Positions 19,460 to 23,174 of a stretch of 35,924 nt of DNA are shown in pieces (within the stretch, counting starts at the first letter, position 1; each line of letters starts with the position of its first letter). Both the position numbers and the translations under genes were made by a program. Source of the DNA: Acidobacteriota bacterium (lineage in GTDB: Bacteria > Acidobacteriota > Thermoanaerobaculia > Multivoradales > J023); NCBI GenBank assembly GCA_029263395.1, contig JAJCXO010000084.1:1-35924 (forward strand). Reading direction: 5' to 3'. The notes beneath the pieces were generated by a model. The model saw nothing but the letters and a program-made list of their open reading frames with translations. It was not told the origin of the DNA and did no database searches.

Positions 19460-19795
19460 TCAGCTATCGGAGCTAAGCCACCGATGCACTCGGCGCCTAA
19501 CCCGGAGCACAATACGCCAGGCAGTTGGCCACGGGCGGAGTAAATAACGCAGGCTGGAGAGCATTGTCTGGCTGACCAGAGAAAGTGCAGCGGCACCCGC
19601 GGCAAGGGTCATGACACCTTGGAGGCCGGGGAGCACCAAGCCAACCAGACCGACCGCAATCAGGACCCATCCAAGGATCAACAGCAAGATTTTCGTTGTT
19701 GATGACAGGTGTGGGAGGTTAGGAAACTTCTGAGGCTGCCAGCCTACCTGGAGAGATGGTGCCTTCGAGCGGTTTCTAGGTCGGTTCGAACTCAT
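19460..19795 (-). CDS. Small membrane protein, PGPGW-like
   Basis: This 111-residue protein has a basic, Pro-rich start, then two hydrophobic stretches, ILLLILGWVLIAVGLVGLVLPG and VMTLAAGAAALSLV, and a strongly basic C-terminus. The glycine-rich GWxLIxxGLxGLxLPG pattern resembles the PGPGW / DUF454 families of small inner-membrane proteins, whose function is unknown. The start is ATG at 19795. It converges on the metal exporter with one base between the two stops. Its promoter region would overlap the region upstream of the HTH gene on the other strand. Confidence 0.65.
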   Translation of the reverse strand: MSSNRPRNRSKAPSLQVGWQPQKFPNLPHLSSTTKILLLILGWVLIAVGLVGLVLPGLQGVMTLAAGAAALSLVSQTMLSSLRYLLRPWPTAWRIVLRVRRRVHRWLSSDS

Positions 19796-19944: not shown

Positions 19945-19979
19945 TGTACAATAAGCCTCTTGTCTCTATAATAGAGAGG
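19945..19979 (+). promoter_or_regulatory. Candidate promoter with palindrome overlapping the -10 box
   Basis: TATAAT at 19967-19972 matches a sigma-70 -10 box exactly; a weak -35 (TGTACA) lies at 19945-19950. The -10 box is inside the dyad TCTCTATAATAGAGA. Transcription from here would begin at about 19979, next to the ATG at 19980, and give a leaderless or nearly leaderless message. The dyad could be an operator. Confidence 0.35.
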
Positions 19980-20456
19980 ATGTCTTTTTATTGGGATATA
20001 GATAGCCTTTTGGAAGAGATTCGTGTCTTGGTTGAGGCATCCGAGTTTAGTCAACGTCGAGTCGAGGAACAGGCTGGTCTTTCGTGCGGCTATCTCTCAC
20101 GGCTACTATCGGGAAGTCGGGAGCTCAAGATCTGGCAGATGTTGGCGGTCCTCGGTGTGTTGGATTGTCACCCTGTTGATTTCTTCGAGCGGACAACCCC
20201 TTTGCTCAATTCTGCATCTGCGCAACCTCGGTTTTTGGATTTTCGATCCCCTGACGAGACGAGCTGCACGCTAGCAGTGTGCACCGGCGAGCAGCATCGA
20301 CGCGACAGGGAGATTGACCAGGCCACAAAACGGTTACGGCGTCGCGGGATCGAATCTTTAGGTGCGTTACGTCTCCGTCTTGCGCGGTGTGAACAAGCGG
20401 TCGCGGAGCTCGAGGGGTCAGGTACACCTGTTTCTGTAAGCCTGATCAGGGGCTGA
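19980..20456 (+). CDS. Small HTH (XRE-like) transcriptional regulator, paralogue 1
   Basis: This 158-residue protein has a Cro/C1-type helix-turn-helix at about 20-70 (SQRRVEEQAGLSCGYLSRLL, then SGSRELKIWQMLAVL). A C-terminal region with the motif GIESLxxLxxRLxxCE is also present in the second regulator (22523-22945). Both parts align between the two, so they are paralogues. The start is ATG at 19980, with AGAGG four bases before it; the frame is open to 19794 but that part looks non-coding. The gene is followed after 12 bp by the TPR gene on the same strand, a probable operon. In other bacteria HTH plus TPR pairs often respond to ligands or peptides; whether this one does is unknown. Confidence 0.8.
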   Translation: MSFYWDIDSLLEEIRVLVEASEFSQRRVEEQAGLSCGYLSRLLSGSRELKIWQMLAVLGVLDCHPVDFFERTTPLLNSASAQPRFLDFRSPDETSCTLAVCTGEQHRRDREIDQATKRLRRRGIESLGALRLRLARCEQAVAELEGSGTPVSVSLIRG

Positions 20457-20468
20457 GGTTGGGACCTG

Positions 20469-21482
20469 ATGAAGCGTCTCTGTCGATATCTGCTCCGAAA
20501 AGCGGATGAGCTCCGTAATCGGGATCCGCAGCGCGCCGTGTCGGTTGCCGAGACGGCGCGAGATCTCGCCGCAAGGATCGATGGCGATTGCTGTAGCCAT
20601 CTCGAGTGGACCGCGCTGCAGGCTGAGTCCTGGGCAGTCTTGGGTAGTGCTTATCGTGGTATCGCGGATCTTCGGCGAGCCGAAGGTGCGCTCAATGTCG
20701 CCGTCAGGTTCTTGCAGACCGGAGAGTCGGCACCAGGTATCGATCCGCTTGCTCAACCACGTTTGGCGCAGCGGGCGTCATATCTACGGTGTGATCAAGG
20801 TCGATTCGAAGAGGCTCTAGAACTGAACGAAGAAGCCATGCTGTCGTATCGTGAAGTTGCAGCCTTTCAAGAACTCGCGGGCAGTTTGGTAGACCGATCA
20901 CTGATTCTCGGGCGGCATGGGAGAGCGGAGCAAGCCGTAGAGTGTTTGATTAGAGCGCTGTATCTATTGGATCCATCGGTGAATCCGCGTTCCTATCTGG
21001 CAGCAATCCACAATATGACGCTTTATCTTTGTGAGAGAGCACAAACTCGCGAAGACCTTCAGGAAGCTTGTCGATGGGCCGGATTGACGGCTCGTCAGCA
21101 TGCCAGGTTTCCAGAAGATGTCCATCAGTTGAAGCTTCGACTGCTGGAAGGGACGATCGCGATCCGACTAGGTTTGATCGATGAAGGCTTGTGCAAGCTG
21201 TGGCAGGCCTACGATGGTTTTGAGAGGTTGGGCTCTGCCCACAACCAGACCGTCGTTTTACTCCAGTTGGCGCAGGTAGCTATGGCTCAGGGTGAAACGA
21301 GAGATGTCAAACGTATCGCAGGTCGGATGTTGCCGATTTTTCGAAAGCTCAATGTGGATCGTGAAACAAGCGCCACGCTGATGCTGTTTTACAAAGCAGC
21401 ACAAGCGGAAGCTGCGACCCAGGAATTGCTGCAACAAGCCCTGGGCCGAGTGGGAGAAAGGCACGGCATGATGCAAATCTAG
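20469..21482 (+). CDS. TPR-repeat protein, partner of the HTH regulator
   Basis: This 337-residue cytoplasmic protein is almost entirely helical and shows tetratricopeptide-like repeats, for example AESWAVLGSAYRGIADLRRAEGAL, CDQGRFEEALELNEEAM and GRAEQAVECLIRALYLLDP. It ends with MLPIFRKLNVDRETSATLMLF, which I recognise as the typical end of a large regulator family in Acidobacteriota. There the TPR part is usually joined to an N-terminal zinc-finger/anti-sigma-like domain. That N-terminal part is missing here and the protein starts at the ADELRNRDPQRAVSVAETA segment. The ATG at 20469 lies 12 bp after the HTH gene. It probably passes a signal or ligand state to that regulator; no enzyme domain is seen. 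Confidence 0.75.
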   Translation: MKRLCRYLLRKADELRNRDPQRAVSVAETARDLAARIDGDCCSHLEWTALQAESWAVLGSAYRGIADLRRAEGALNVAVRFLQTGESAPGIDPLAQPRLAQRASYLRCDQGRFEEALELNEEAMLSYREVAAFQELAGSLVDRSLILGRHGRAEQAVECLIRALYLLDPSVNPRSYLAAIHNMTLYLCERAQTREDLQEACRWAGLTARQHARFPEDVHQLKLRLLEGTIAIRLGLIDEGLCKLWQAYDGFERLGSAHNQTVVLLQLAQVAMAQGETRDVKRIAGRMLPIFRKLNVDRETSATLMLFYKAAQAEAATQELLQQALGRVGERHGMMQI

Positions 21483-21784
21483 CCAAGTATCATGAGTTCG
21501 AGCCACGATGCTAAGCAAGCCAGTGTTCGGGTCAGTGATTCGAGTGCCAGTCGTTTATCCGTTGGGTTCTATCTCTGGTCCCATGAATTCGATGACATCA
21601 GGTCGACCTACGCTGTCGATCGCTGCGAAGAGTTTGTACATTGGCTCCCTCCTTTCGGGAGATTCTTGGGAGCGAGCTGGATTGCCCAAACACTCCCCTG
21701 AGAAGGTGAACCTACCTGTCGATCCTCAAAGATAGGTCATTGTGTTGGGATACGCAGAAAGTGTGACTCTTGTCAGCAAGGTCC

Positions 21785-21813
21785 TTGACTATCCAGAAAT
21801 AGCTCTTTAAAAT
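21785..21813 (+). promoter_or_regulatory. Sigma-70-type promoter candidate
   Basis: TTGACT (21785-21790) and TAAAAT (21808-21813) are separated by 17 bp, the ideal spacing, in an AT-rich stretch of otherwise GC-rich sequence. It points toward the gene starting at 21963, leaving a leader of about 140 bases. Confidence 0.5.
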
Positions 21814-21930
21814 GCGAAAATCTCGCTTCTGGGTAGCTTGGGTTTCTCGGAGACTTGCCAAGAATCCGAGACCGCCAGGAGCTGTGACGGGAGCACTGCA
21901 CCGATTGGTAAGATCACTCGGAGGACTATT

Positions 21931-21962
21931 TGATCGGAGGACCACTTGATCGGAGGACCACT
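21931..21962 (+). repeat. Two exact 16-bp tandem units carrying the ribosome binding site
   Basis: TGATCGGAGGACCACT occurs twice in a row (21931-21946, 21947-21962), with a diverged copy just upstream (CACTCGGAGGACTATT). Each contains GGAGG; the second is 6 bases before GTG at 21963. Duplicating the ribosome site could change expression of the downstream gene. Confidence 0.85.
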
Positions 21963-22511
21963 GTGAAAGGTATGGATCTCAGCATCGACGCATCTTTTGT
22001 TTCGCGTCTGTTCCTGGGAGCTCTGTCGGAGCACGAACAACGCATGGTCGCCGTCGAGTTGTTGCGGAGCAACACCGACTTTCGTGCTGCTGTGTACTCG
22101 ATTGTCGAGACGTTCGAGATGTTCGATGGCGATTTGATAGCCGAGTATTCAGACGCACTATCGCGATCACCGCCCAATATCGAAGATCGGAGGAAACAGC
22201 TGCTAGAACGTTCTTATGTCCGGGCCGGAGATTTGGGTGGCTTGATTTACGATCTTACGATGATCGATGCACTTTCCCTGGGTGAGGTCACGCGCAAGTT
22301 GTATTCCTGGAGCATGTCTGAGTTCCTGCTACAACGCGGTTGCGAGCAGGAAGATAATACTTTCAAGGCCAAGACCGATCTTTCCCTTGCGTTGATGGTC
22401 ATCGATGTGGTCGAACTGTTGGGAGCGGCTGGGCATTCGCCGAGTTTTCCCAATGTGGTCACCAATGTTCGAAGGCGCATCCAGCAAGCTATTAGACAGC
22501 AAGAACTGTAG
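21963..22511 (+). CDS. Protein resembling a zinc-finger/anti-sigma-like N-terminal domain without zinc ligands
   Basis: This protein of about 182 residues starts V-K-G-M-D-L-S-I-D-A. Its beginning, LFLGALSEHEQRMVAVELLRSNTDFRAAV, follows the pattern of acidobacterial proteins in which a zf-HC2-like stretch (HLLxxCPxC) precedes a TPR region. The His and both Cys positions are Glu, Asn/Thr and Phe here, so zinc is unlikely to bind. The later segment VTRKLYSWSMSEFLLQRG matches the linker before the TPR part in that family, and the protein stops there. I therefore read it as the detached N-terminal half. GTG at 21963 fits the GGAGG six bases upstream; ATG at 21972 is possible. It is followed after 11 bp by HTH paralogue 2. 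Confidence 0.65.
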   Translation: MKGMDLSIDASFVSRLFLGALSEHEQRMVAVELLRSNTDFRAAVYSIVETFEMFDGDLIAEYSDALSRSPPNIEDRRKQLLERSYVRAGDLGGLIYDLTMIDALSLGEVTRKLYSWSMSEFLLQRGCEQEDNTFKAKTDLSLALMVIDVVELLGAAGHSPSFPNVVTNVRRRIQQAIRQQEL

Positions 22512-22522
22512 GCTGATGCCGG

Positions 22523-22945
22523 GTGGATCCAAAACGAGAAACCCAGCGTCTTTTGAAATGGCTTCGTTTCCTGATCCAGATCTCTGAGCGGTCGCAGCAA
22601 GAGATCGAGCACCAATCGAGTTTCTCTCGCGGATATCTGTCACAGATTCTGAATGGCCGGGTAGAGCTCAAGCTCCAGCATGTTCTGAGAATACTCGAGA
22701 CCATTGACGTGTCACCTGCGGAGCTATTCTTTCAAGCGTTCCCGCGAAGGAAGAGTCGGGTCCCAGAAGTGTTGGAAGGCTTCAGGCAACACTCCCATGG
22801 ATTCGAGAGAGAGCTGACCTGGGATCTTGCTCGACTTTACGGTTACGGAATTGAGTCCTTGGAAGATCTCGAGGTGCGGCTCGAGAAGTGCGAAGATGTA
22901 TTGGCTGGTTTGACACCACGGGAAGTGTCGGATCGAAAAAGCTAG
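22523..22945 (+). CDS. Small HTH (XRE-like) transcriptional regulator, paralogue 2
   Basis: This 140-residue protein has a helix-turn-helix at about 25-70 (SQQEIEHQSSFSRGYLSQIL, then NGRVELKLQHVLRIL). It shares with the regulator at 19980-20456 both the HTH (GYLSxxLxGxxELK) and the C-terminal GIESLxxLxxRLxxCE motif. The probable start is GTG at 22523, 11 bp after the upstream stop; no ATG fits in that region. It pairs with the gene at 21963-22511 as paralogue 1 pairs with the TPR gene, but with the order reversed. The region between them and the downstream transglutaminase gene carries a large stem-loop. DNA target unknown. Confidence 0.78.
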   Translation: MDPKRETQRLLKWLRFLIQISERSQQEIEHQSSFSRGYLSQILNGRVELKLQHVLRILETIDVSPAELFFQAFPRRKSRVPEVLEGFRQHSHGFERELTWDLARLYGYGIESLEDLEVRLEKCEDVLAGLTPREVSDRKS

Positions 22946-22981
22946 AAACCGGAACCAGCCCGCGATAGAGTAATATTGAAG

Positions 22982-23067
22982 TCGGCTTGGCGAGCCGGGG
23001 GTAGCACCGAGTGACTGGTGTTGTTGAATTAGCCCCAACCCCGATTCTCCCGTGCTCGCCGAGCCGA
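22982..23067. other. Long inverted repeat (about 86 bp) after the HTH gene
   Basis: TCGGCTTGGCGAGC (22982-22995) pairs with GCTCGCCGAGCCGA (23054-23067), 13 of 14 positions. Inside, GGGG pairs with CCCC, and CACC with GGTG near the tip, so a long structured RNA can form. The flank GATTTGTTTAACTT has short T runs but not a classic terminator tail. Alternatives are a terminator, an mRNA leader element for the downstream gene at 23175, or a small RNA. Confidence 0.6.
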
Positions 23068-23174
23068 TTTGTTTAACTTGGCAGGGCGATGTCCAACATT
23101 CACCCCGTGGTTGGTAGACACGGGCTCGCTCCCGGTCGTTAAATGGGCAGGCGATCGACAACGGGAGCATACGA

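Follow-up and report, generated by a model that had tools for sequence, protein, structure and literature searches.

Two paralogous XRE-type regulator genes, each beside a putative part of a TPR receptor, in a genome of the order Multivoradales

We lean toward reading a four-gene locus of an Acidobacteriota bacterium (Thermoanaerobaculia; Multivoradales; J023) as two tandem modules, each of which would combine an HTH regulator with a separately encoded part of a TPR sensor. The locus lies in assembly GCA_029263395.1, contig JAJCXO010000084.1, positions 1 to 35,924 of the forward strand, and this whole stretch of 35,924 nucleotides is here called the window. The four genes are kept together in four of the seven genomes of the family that were examined (G000, G396, G246, and G398), and such joint conservation was one of two points on which a first-pass annotation of the same DNA had staked its proposal of a split and duplicated regulatory system.

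RESULTS

The four open reading frames that the annotation had named are all present, and all are on the forward strand. HTH-A (19980 to 20456, 158 amino acids) is followed by the gene for a TPR protein (20469 to 21482, 337 amino acids), and NT (21963 to 22511) is followed by HTH-B (22523 to 22945, 140 amino acids, GTG start). TPR and NT each lie 11 to 12 bases from a different HTH gene. NT starts either at GTG 21963, which is preceded by GGAGGA (182 amino acids), or at ATG 21972 (179 amino acids), and by profile match it appears to contain a degenerate zf-HC2-like domain and the region of the TPR family's first hairpin.

HTH-A and HTH-B were assigned as XRE-type regulators by reading frame, Pfam, and comparison with each other. 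Their paralogy was confirmed, at 35% identity (51/145; BLASTP E 6e-20 in a single comparison), as was the C-terminal motif that they have in common (GIESLGALRLRLARCE in HTH-A and GIESLEDLEVRLEKCE in HTH-B). HTH-B exceeds the Pfam cut-off for HTH_3, while HTH-A matches HTH_31 and HTH_3 below cut-off and is placed in the Cro/C1 (XRE) class, with an HTH_3-type domain, via its 35% identity to HTH-B. The GIESL motif also occurs in 4 of the 14 HTH proteins of the family, those with no TPR or NT gene within 8 to 10 kb, and because it is found in HTH genes that have no TPR neighbor, it is at most a candidate docking site. In a tree of 22 HTH sequences, the HTH-A and HTH-B labels separate at support 54/79, and neither a single clade of the four HTH-A sequences (p-AU 0.30) nor one of all eight sequences (p-AU 0.13) was rejected. 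The tree does not resolve the HTH duplication.

At the level of sequence profiles, TPR represents the C-terminal part, and NT the N-terminal part, of a chain predicted to join a zf-HC2-like domain to a TPR superhelix. The 450-column profile was that of the zf-HC2-like plus TPR single chain of the same order as the window's genome; NT covers columns 10 to 160 and TPR covers columns 118 to 433. Each protein therefore aligns with the fused family, the other point on which the proposal had been staked, and the TPR protein, aligning only from column 118 on, is indeed without the usual N-terminal domain. NT matched the single-chain profile at E 4.1e-5 and its three orthologues matched at 1.2e-11, 7e-7, and 3.7e-4, whereas 200 shuffled versions of NT gave E 0.053 at best. 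Moreover, profile-profile comparison by hhalign gave a probability of 95.5% (E 1.5e-8). In the reverse direction, the NT profile returned from 59 genomes the four NT orthologues and four weak matches, all four of which were frames already counted as single-chain relatives. The third NT match in 396 genomes of the phylum was weak (E 0.008; a 930-amino-acid frame in G123). NT has no Pfam match at E ≤ 1, and the TPR protein matches TPR_12 below cut-off.

Two parts of the original description needed qualification. The word "halves" holds in that each protein aligns with its own section of the chain, but it is only approximate, because the two overlap by about 43 columns (118 to 160) and a direct comparison of the NT profile with the TPR profile gave no match. 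The statement that the family is normally made as one chain fits the order, where the N-terminal part is found in 99 of 150 rows among the matches listed, but it does not fit the window's own genome, where the TPR-only form is the commonest (9 of 19 further TPR loci). All eight own-genome matches to the single chain start at residue 103 or later. When the single-chain protein was searched against 119 genomes of the phylum, only the window's genome gave a match, a result of the sparse sampling of the order.

The zinc ligands of NT had been described as lost, and the alignment agrees: none of the four NT proteins has them, versus 24 of 28 single chains. In the single chains, H-x(3-5)-C-x2-C was sought in the first 330 residues and was found in 10 of 1,400 shuffles. 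Zinc ligands of the anti-sigma zf-HC2/ZAS domain are spaced H-x3-C-x2-C. The single-chain relatives resemble that domain in the general pattern but differ in spacing, as 23 of the 24 have H-x4-C and H-x3-C occurs once; NT differs in having no ligands. The one single chain that was scanned matched zf-HC2 below cut-off (E 0.18), and no sigma-factor gene was found among the neighbors scanned.

The structure model of the TPR protein has a pLDDT of 89.6. The first bacterial rows of a fold search with it were the Rap and NprR receptors (Z 19.4 to 22.3); the top match, however, was LGN, and thus any large TPR superhelix may match the model. An AlphaFold2 model of NT built from four sequences (pLDDT 56) was too poor for use.

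The four genes have been conserved together, and purifying selection acts on them: against G396, a genome of the same genus, the window gave dN/dS values of 0.06 for TPR, 0.07 for HTH-B, 0.10 for NT, and 0.27 for HTH-A. The NT frame is open in three further genomes from two genera, at 47 to 81% identity to the window's copy, and 66 of 190 alignment columns are invariant. NT was found only beside HTH-A and TPR (4/4 loci), whereas G334 and G368 have HTH and TPR without NT. Searches of phages and viral contigs with NT, and of plasmids with TPR, gave no match.

A consensus scan of the region found four promoter-like sites versus 1.6 expected. P1 (TGTACA-16-TATAAT, forward strand, 19945 to 19972) ends 7 bases 5' of the HTH-A start codon and is kept in G396, and P2 (TTGACT-17-TAAAAT, forward strand, 21785 to 21813) lies upstream of NT, with a similar site in G396. 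The -10 box of P1 is spanned by a candidate operator, the 13-base inverted repeat CTCTATAATAGAG (forward strand, 19964 to 19976), which is identical in G396; no copy with two or fewer mismatches was present at the equivalent position of L068, L070, L072, or L073. An operator common to the regions upstream of HTH-A and NT is weakly suggested by a pattern picked post hoc, for which 3 of 12 upstream regions reached the shuffle level of 3 to 6% and 9 did not. 3' of HTH-B, a conserved hairpin (forward strand, 22979 to 23072; minimum free energy, -51.7 kcal/mol; z -6.9) is 96% identical in G396 and probably closes the four-gene unit. It is present once each in G000 and G396 and absent from the other five genomes searched, and hence is no dispersed repeat. 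No Rfam family reached its gathering score within the window, and a plant microRNA family that hit the hairpin below threshold (33.8 of 62 bits) was regarded as a chance match.

Genes of the HTH family adjoin genes of the TPR family beyond expectation. All HTH matches outside the family at E ≤ 1e-6 gave 35 homologues, 20 of which lie within 2.5 kb of a TPR-family gene (14 tail to tail) versus about 4 expected (P 4e-11 at a generous 11% chance rate, with the homologues not independent, some being likely orthologous to each other, and several loci cut by contig ends). The other 15 have no TPR gene in the stretch examined. At E ≤ 0.001, an HTH match was found in 18 of 59 genomes, and all 18 also have a TPR-family match (Fisher P 5e-6, a value that ignores kinship). 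Among the matches listed, 34 genomes of the order contain the TPR family, and 16 of these yielded no HTH match at E ≤ 0.001; most of the TPR family is therefore independent of this HTH family. G386, G404, G409, and G414 have 8 to 17 TPR matches each among those listed and no HTH match at that threshold.

In the window's own genome, profile matches place members of the TPR family in one chain with AraC-type and, more weakly matched, XRE-type HTH domains. Among the 19 TPR loci, four encode AraC-TPR chains (HTH_18, E 2e-11 to 2.8e-14) and four encode XRE-TPR chains, whose first 100 residues matched the HTH profile at E 3.8e-8 to 1.6e-5 (400 shuffles reached E 0.098 at best); Pfam found an HTH below cut-off in two of the latter and none in the other two. 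Thus, the same TPR family appears joined to a DNA-binding domain in a single chain there but is encoded separately from it at this locus. Together with the TPR neighbors of 20 of the 35 homologues, the fusions support a partnership of HTH and TPR.

DISCUSSION

A working model of the two modules can be proposed. The TPR protein would sense a small ligand, a peptide, or a protein through its groove, and its binding to HTH-A would alter the grip of HTH-A on DNA. NT would be the half that contacts the partner but lacks the sensor, and it may act likewise on HTH-B, free of ligand; alternatively, NT may compete with or cap the TPR protein. Both HTH proteins probably act on their own promoters, P1 and P2, and perhaps also control the neighboring transglutaminase and ABC-transporter genes.

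Other arrangements were considered. NT could dock on the TPR protein via the hairpin that both keep, re-forming one receptor in trans that controls both HTH proteins. Together the two do cover the single-chain profile, sharing columns 118 to 160, and NT occurs exclusively next to HTH-A and TPR. We nevertheless think this unlikely, as profile comparison found no direct match between NT and TPR, each gene has its own promoter-like site and adjoins a different HTH gene, and TPR seems to have no need of NT in G334 and G368, where HTH and TPR stand without it. We give still less credence to the idea that the HTH genes are autonomous repressors and that TPR and NT are bystanders unrelated to them, carried along in an old duplication and kept in position. 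Such autonomy would explain why 4 of the family's 14 HTH proteins stand alone, why 15 of 35 homologues elsewhere have no TPR gene in the stretch examined, and why 16 of 34 TPR-family genomes lack this HTH family, but it would not predict the excess of TPR neighbors or the HTH-TPR fusions of the same genome.

In NT, the zinc ligands are gone and the TPR domain is largely missing, as would be expected if a single-chain gene had been truncated and were decaying. Its open frame in three further genomes, its invariant columns, and its dN/dS of 0.10 make decay very improbable. Finally, small HTH genes that immediately adjoin partner genes recall toxin-antitoxin pairs with an HTH antitoxin. PADLOC, however, returned only weak control-protein/HTH matches for HTH-B and nothing for the other three, and the TPR partner comes from an expanded family that is also fused to AraC regulators; we give this explanation almost no weight.

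The two-module reading has a partial parallel in Rap-pLS20 of the Bacillus subtilis plasmid pLS20, a TPR protein that is described as binding a separate HTH repressor, Rco-pLS20, which a peptide releases (PMC7430634). In that account, the N-terminal domain of Rap-pLS20 is thought to touch the partner and the TPR part to sense the peptide (PMC7430634). A TPR protein without its own HTH and a separate HTH regulator are found here as well, and their action would be similar. The locus differs in phylum, in that no propeptide gene is evident in the TPR-NT gap of this window, and in that a gene of its own, next to a second HTH gene, encodes the N-terminal part. No Rap protein was named among sequence matches of the TPR profile to solved structures at E ≤ 1. 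In the TPR-NT gap, no propeptide gene was evident in the window or in G396; on the opposite strand of that gap, signal-peptide-like small frames occur in L068 (51 amino acids) and L070 (116 amino acids).

Peptide-sensing, TPR-controlled HTH regulators (RRNPPA) have been described for Firmicutes/Bacillota (PMC10075063, PMC12700828). The present proteins resemble receptors such as PlcR, NprR, AimR, and Rap in combining HTH with a TPR superhelix, with XRE-TPR single chains in the same genome by profile match, and the TPR protein, with 337 amino acids and its modeled fold, is of RRNPPA receptor size (a TPR superhelix of about 250 to 500 amino acids). It matches no NCBIfam model at E ≤ 1 and hence no known RRNPPA model, and the HTH proteins match the AimR model far below cut-off (about 14 of 70 bits). 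RRNPPA receptors are also characterized by a neighboring gene for a small secreted propeptide, and none is evident in the TPR-NT gap of the window.

More tentatively, Thermoanaerobaculia might contain a large undescribed class of two-gene switches, each an XRE regulator with a zinc-finger/TPR receptor and with up to dozens of receptors per genome. In one family, the receptor would have been split into sensor and effector proteins, each bound to its own regulator, to give an antagonistic or joint switch. A literature search of titles and abstract openings, mostly outside subscription journals, found no publication on this family among those listed. If the reading is correct, the locus would be a naturally dissected receptor, with the sensor in one protein and the partner-contacting domain in another, and the Acidobacteriota would have a large paralogous family with RRNPPA-like parts in separate, fused, and split forms. 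A split receptor would make the part that touches the regulator directly testable, and it may offer a handle on gene regulation in bacteria known here mainly through metagenome-assembled genomes.

Results

The window is one entire contig of a 10.7-Mb genome, and its four-gene block is flanked by a cation-efflux gene on one side and a transglutaminase-like gene on the other. All four open reading frames lie on the plus strand. The gene for the XRE-type regulator HTH-A (19980-20456) is followed after 12 bases by TPR (20469-21482), and NT (21963/21972-22511, two possible starts) is followed after 11 bases by the second regulator, HTH-B (22523-22945); about 480 bases separate TPR from NT. The region's two best promoter-like sites in a scan precede HTH-A (19945-19972, plus strand) and NT (21785-21813, plus strand), and the four genes thus look like a pair of two-gene units. 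Between the cation-efflux gene and HTH-A lies a short minus-strand gene (19460-19795). Just 5' of the NT start (21918-21958), TCGGAGGAC occurs three times at 16-base spacing as a repeated Shine-Dalgarno-like cassette, a triplet not seen in the same-genus genome G396. In the fetched loci L068 and L070, the TPR-NT gap holds small opposite-strand frames of 51 and 116 aa, respectively, with signal-peptide-like starts; they could encode propeptides or be unrelated, and no counterpart is evident in that gap in the window or G396.

The block is conserved. G396 and two other genomes of the family (G246 and G398) carry the same four genes in the same order, then a transglutaminase-like gene and two ABC-transporter genes, the last gene of the run in G396 sitting in stretch L123 of the same contig. 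NT is limited to these three genomes and the window's own among 59 of the order, and 396 phylum genomes, a draw that left out G396 and G398, gave NT in the window's genome and G246 plus one doubtful match. Two further genomes of the family (G334 and G368) have HTH and TPR in a different setting, with no NT found and no transglutaminase or ABC-transporter neighbors in the fetched stretch, and another (G397) has three weaker HTH matches and gave no NT when searched. Between the window and G396, dN/dS was 0.27 for HTH-A, 0.06 for TPR, 0.10 for NT, and 0.07 for HTH-B, and thus all four genes are constrained. The dN of HTH-A between two species of the genus (window versus L067) was 0.40, about four times that of its three neighbors (0.08 to 0.11).

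NT and TPR correspond to the two parts of a protein made elsewhere as one chain. In genome G405, a gene adjoining an HTH homolog codes for a single polypeptide of about 460 aa that joins a TPR domain to an N-terminal domain bearing H-x4-C-x2-C. Relatives of the whole chain or its TPR part (E <= 1e-10) occur in at least 34 of the 59 genomes of the order and number more than 20 in at least six of those 34; at most 28 candidates per genome were scored. Among 150 of the matches listed, 99, spread over 26 genomes, include the N-terminal part (start at residue 40 or before), 11 start at 41 to 100, and 40 start beyond 100. On a 450-column profile built from 21 of 28 collected chains, TPR aligned with columns 118-433 (E 1.9e-64), and the NT match spanned columns 10-160 (E 4.1e-5; NT orthologs 1.2e-11, 7e-7, and 3.7e-4; best of 200 shuffles 0.053). 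Alignment of the NT family to the single chains by hhalign gave a probability of 95.5% (E 1.5e-8). In reverse, an NT profile run over the 59 genomes recovered the four NT genes (E < 1e-96) along with four weak hits with E of 3e-4 to 7e-3, all within listed single-chain or TPR-relative frames. The first-pass annotation was therefore right that NT matches the domain missing from TPR. The two overlap at profile columns 118-160, and direct profile comparison of NT with TPR gave nothing (probability 0.3%), so the single-chain profile is the sole source of the hairpin that they would share. Five TPR relatives in named records come from Acidobacteriota or Thermoanaerobaculia MAGs, one titled only "uncultured bacterium."

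The proposed loss of zinc ligands in NT also held: H-x(3-5)-C-x2-C is present in 24 of 28 single chains (10 of 1,400 shuffles) and missing from all four NT proteins. NT is not alone in this, for the pattern is also absent from four single-chain relatives: L103, L105, and, in genomes of the same family, L119 (G246) and L120 (G398).

HTH-A and HTH-B are paralogs, as had been claimed (35% identity; E 6e-20). In an alignment of 14 HTH-family sequences, the ten invariant columns include the C-terminal motif residues R133, L134, and E138. Ten of the 14 genes adjoin a TPR or NT gene and four (L010, L069, L071, and L074) have none in the 8 to 10 kb fetched; thus, the motif is not exclusive to TPR partners. 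By reading, the GIESL-type solo genes L010, L071, and L074, in three genomes, adjoin a PIG-L deacetylase-like gene.

HTH and TPR genes are neighbors outside the family, too. Among all 35 HTH matches there (E <= 1e-6; up to about 3.5 kb fetched on each side), a TPR-family gene (profile E <= 1e-10) lies within 2.5 kb of 20; the pairs are tail to tail in 14 cases and divergent in 3, with HTH upstream in 2 and downstream in 1. The other 15 have none in the fetched stretch, some being cut by contig ends. About 4 neighbors would be expected by chance, with the 140 candidate genes in 8 Mb of G410, the genome with the most, taken as an upper bound; the resulting P of 4e-11 is too small given the orthologs among the 35. 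All 18 genomes with an HTH match carry a TPR-family match, but an HTH match is lacking in 16 of the 34 genomes where the TPR family is found; the TPR family thus extends more widely than this HTH family.

The window's own genome has 33 other TPR matches, and the 19 that were read comprised four AraC-TPR chains (Pfam HTH_18 above cutoff), four XRE-TPR chains, nine TPR-only genes, one gene with an internal stop, and one that, by reading, resembles a protein kinase-TPR chain. The XRE assignment comes from the HTH profile on the first 100 residues (E 3.8e-8 to 1.6e-5; best of 400 shuffles 0.098), but Pfam counts against it, with HTH_31 below cutoff in two chains and nothing in the other two. We conclude that DNA-binding and TPR domains occur in single chains, as neighbors, and separately. 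By reading, genes for a small secreted protein and a secreted RHS-like protein follow both a TPR-only gene (L026, contig C213) and an AraC-TPR gene (L033, contig C211). At L015 (102-1494, contig C120), the HTH-like frame overlaps the TPR frame on the same strand but in a different register, which points either to a pair of overlapping genes or to an XRE-TPR chain with a frameshift.

A single-copy hairpin (22979-23072; folding z -6.9) lies between HTH-B and the transglutaminase gene and matches no Rfam family at gathering score. Its stem and loop are 96% identical to those of G396, where part of the flanks has diverged, and this conservation exceeds the needs of a plain terminator. A simple terminator scan of the window, which permits only shorter loops, did not call it. 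In L070, a strong hairpin (z -6.0) and, after it, a T run between the same gene pair suggest a terminator that sets the four-gene block apart from the transglutaminase gene. At the same place in L068, complementary arms are apparent by reading, and two folded pieces were not better than shuffles.

Discussion

The best-supported reading is that each HTH protein would be under the control of its neighboring partner, for which we infer binding, a ligand, and targets. The predicted model of TPR is a superhelix (pLDDT 89.6), and a fold search with it placed LGN/Pins on top, with the Rap and NprR receptors as the first bacterial rows (Z 19.4 to 22.3; identity 7 to 14%), a match of the model that would speak to fold and not function. 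Helices of the model hold invariant residues, among them R98, R102, Y105, D142, and N182, and we infer that these line the groove.

Of the worked cases that we found, Rap-pLS20 is the closest: this TPR protein binds the HTH repressor Rco and releases it once the Rap peptide binds, and the authors of that study expect the contact to be made through the N-terminal domain (PMC7430634). By analogy with that N-terminal contact, NT may be a contact part without a sensor and TPR a sensor without a contact part. Ultimately, the parts themselves are known, and the arrangement is real, conserved, and unusual.
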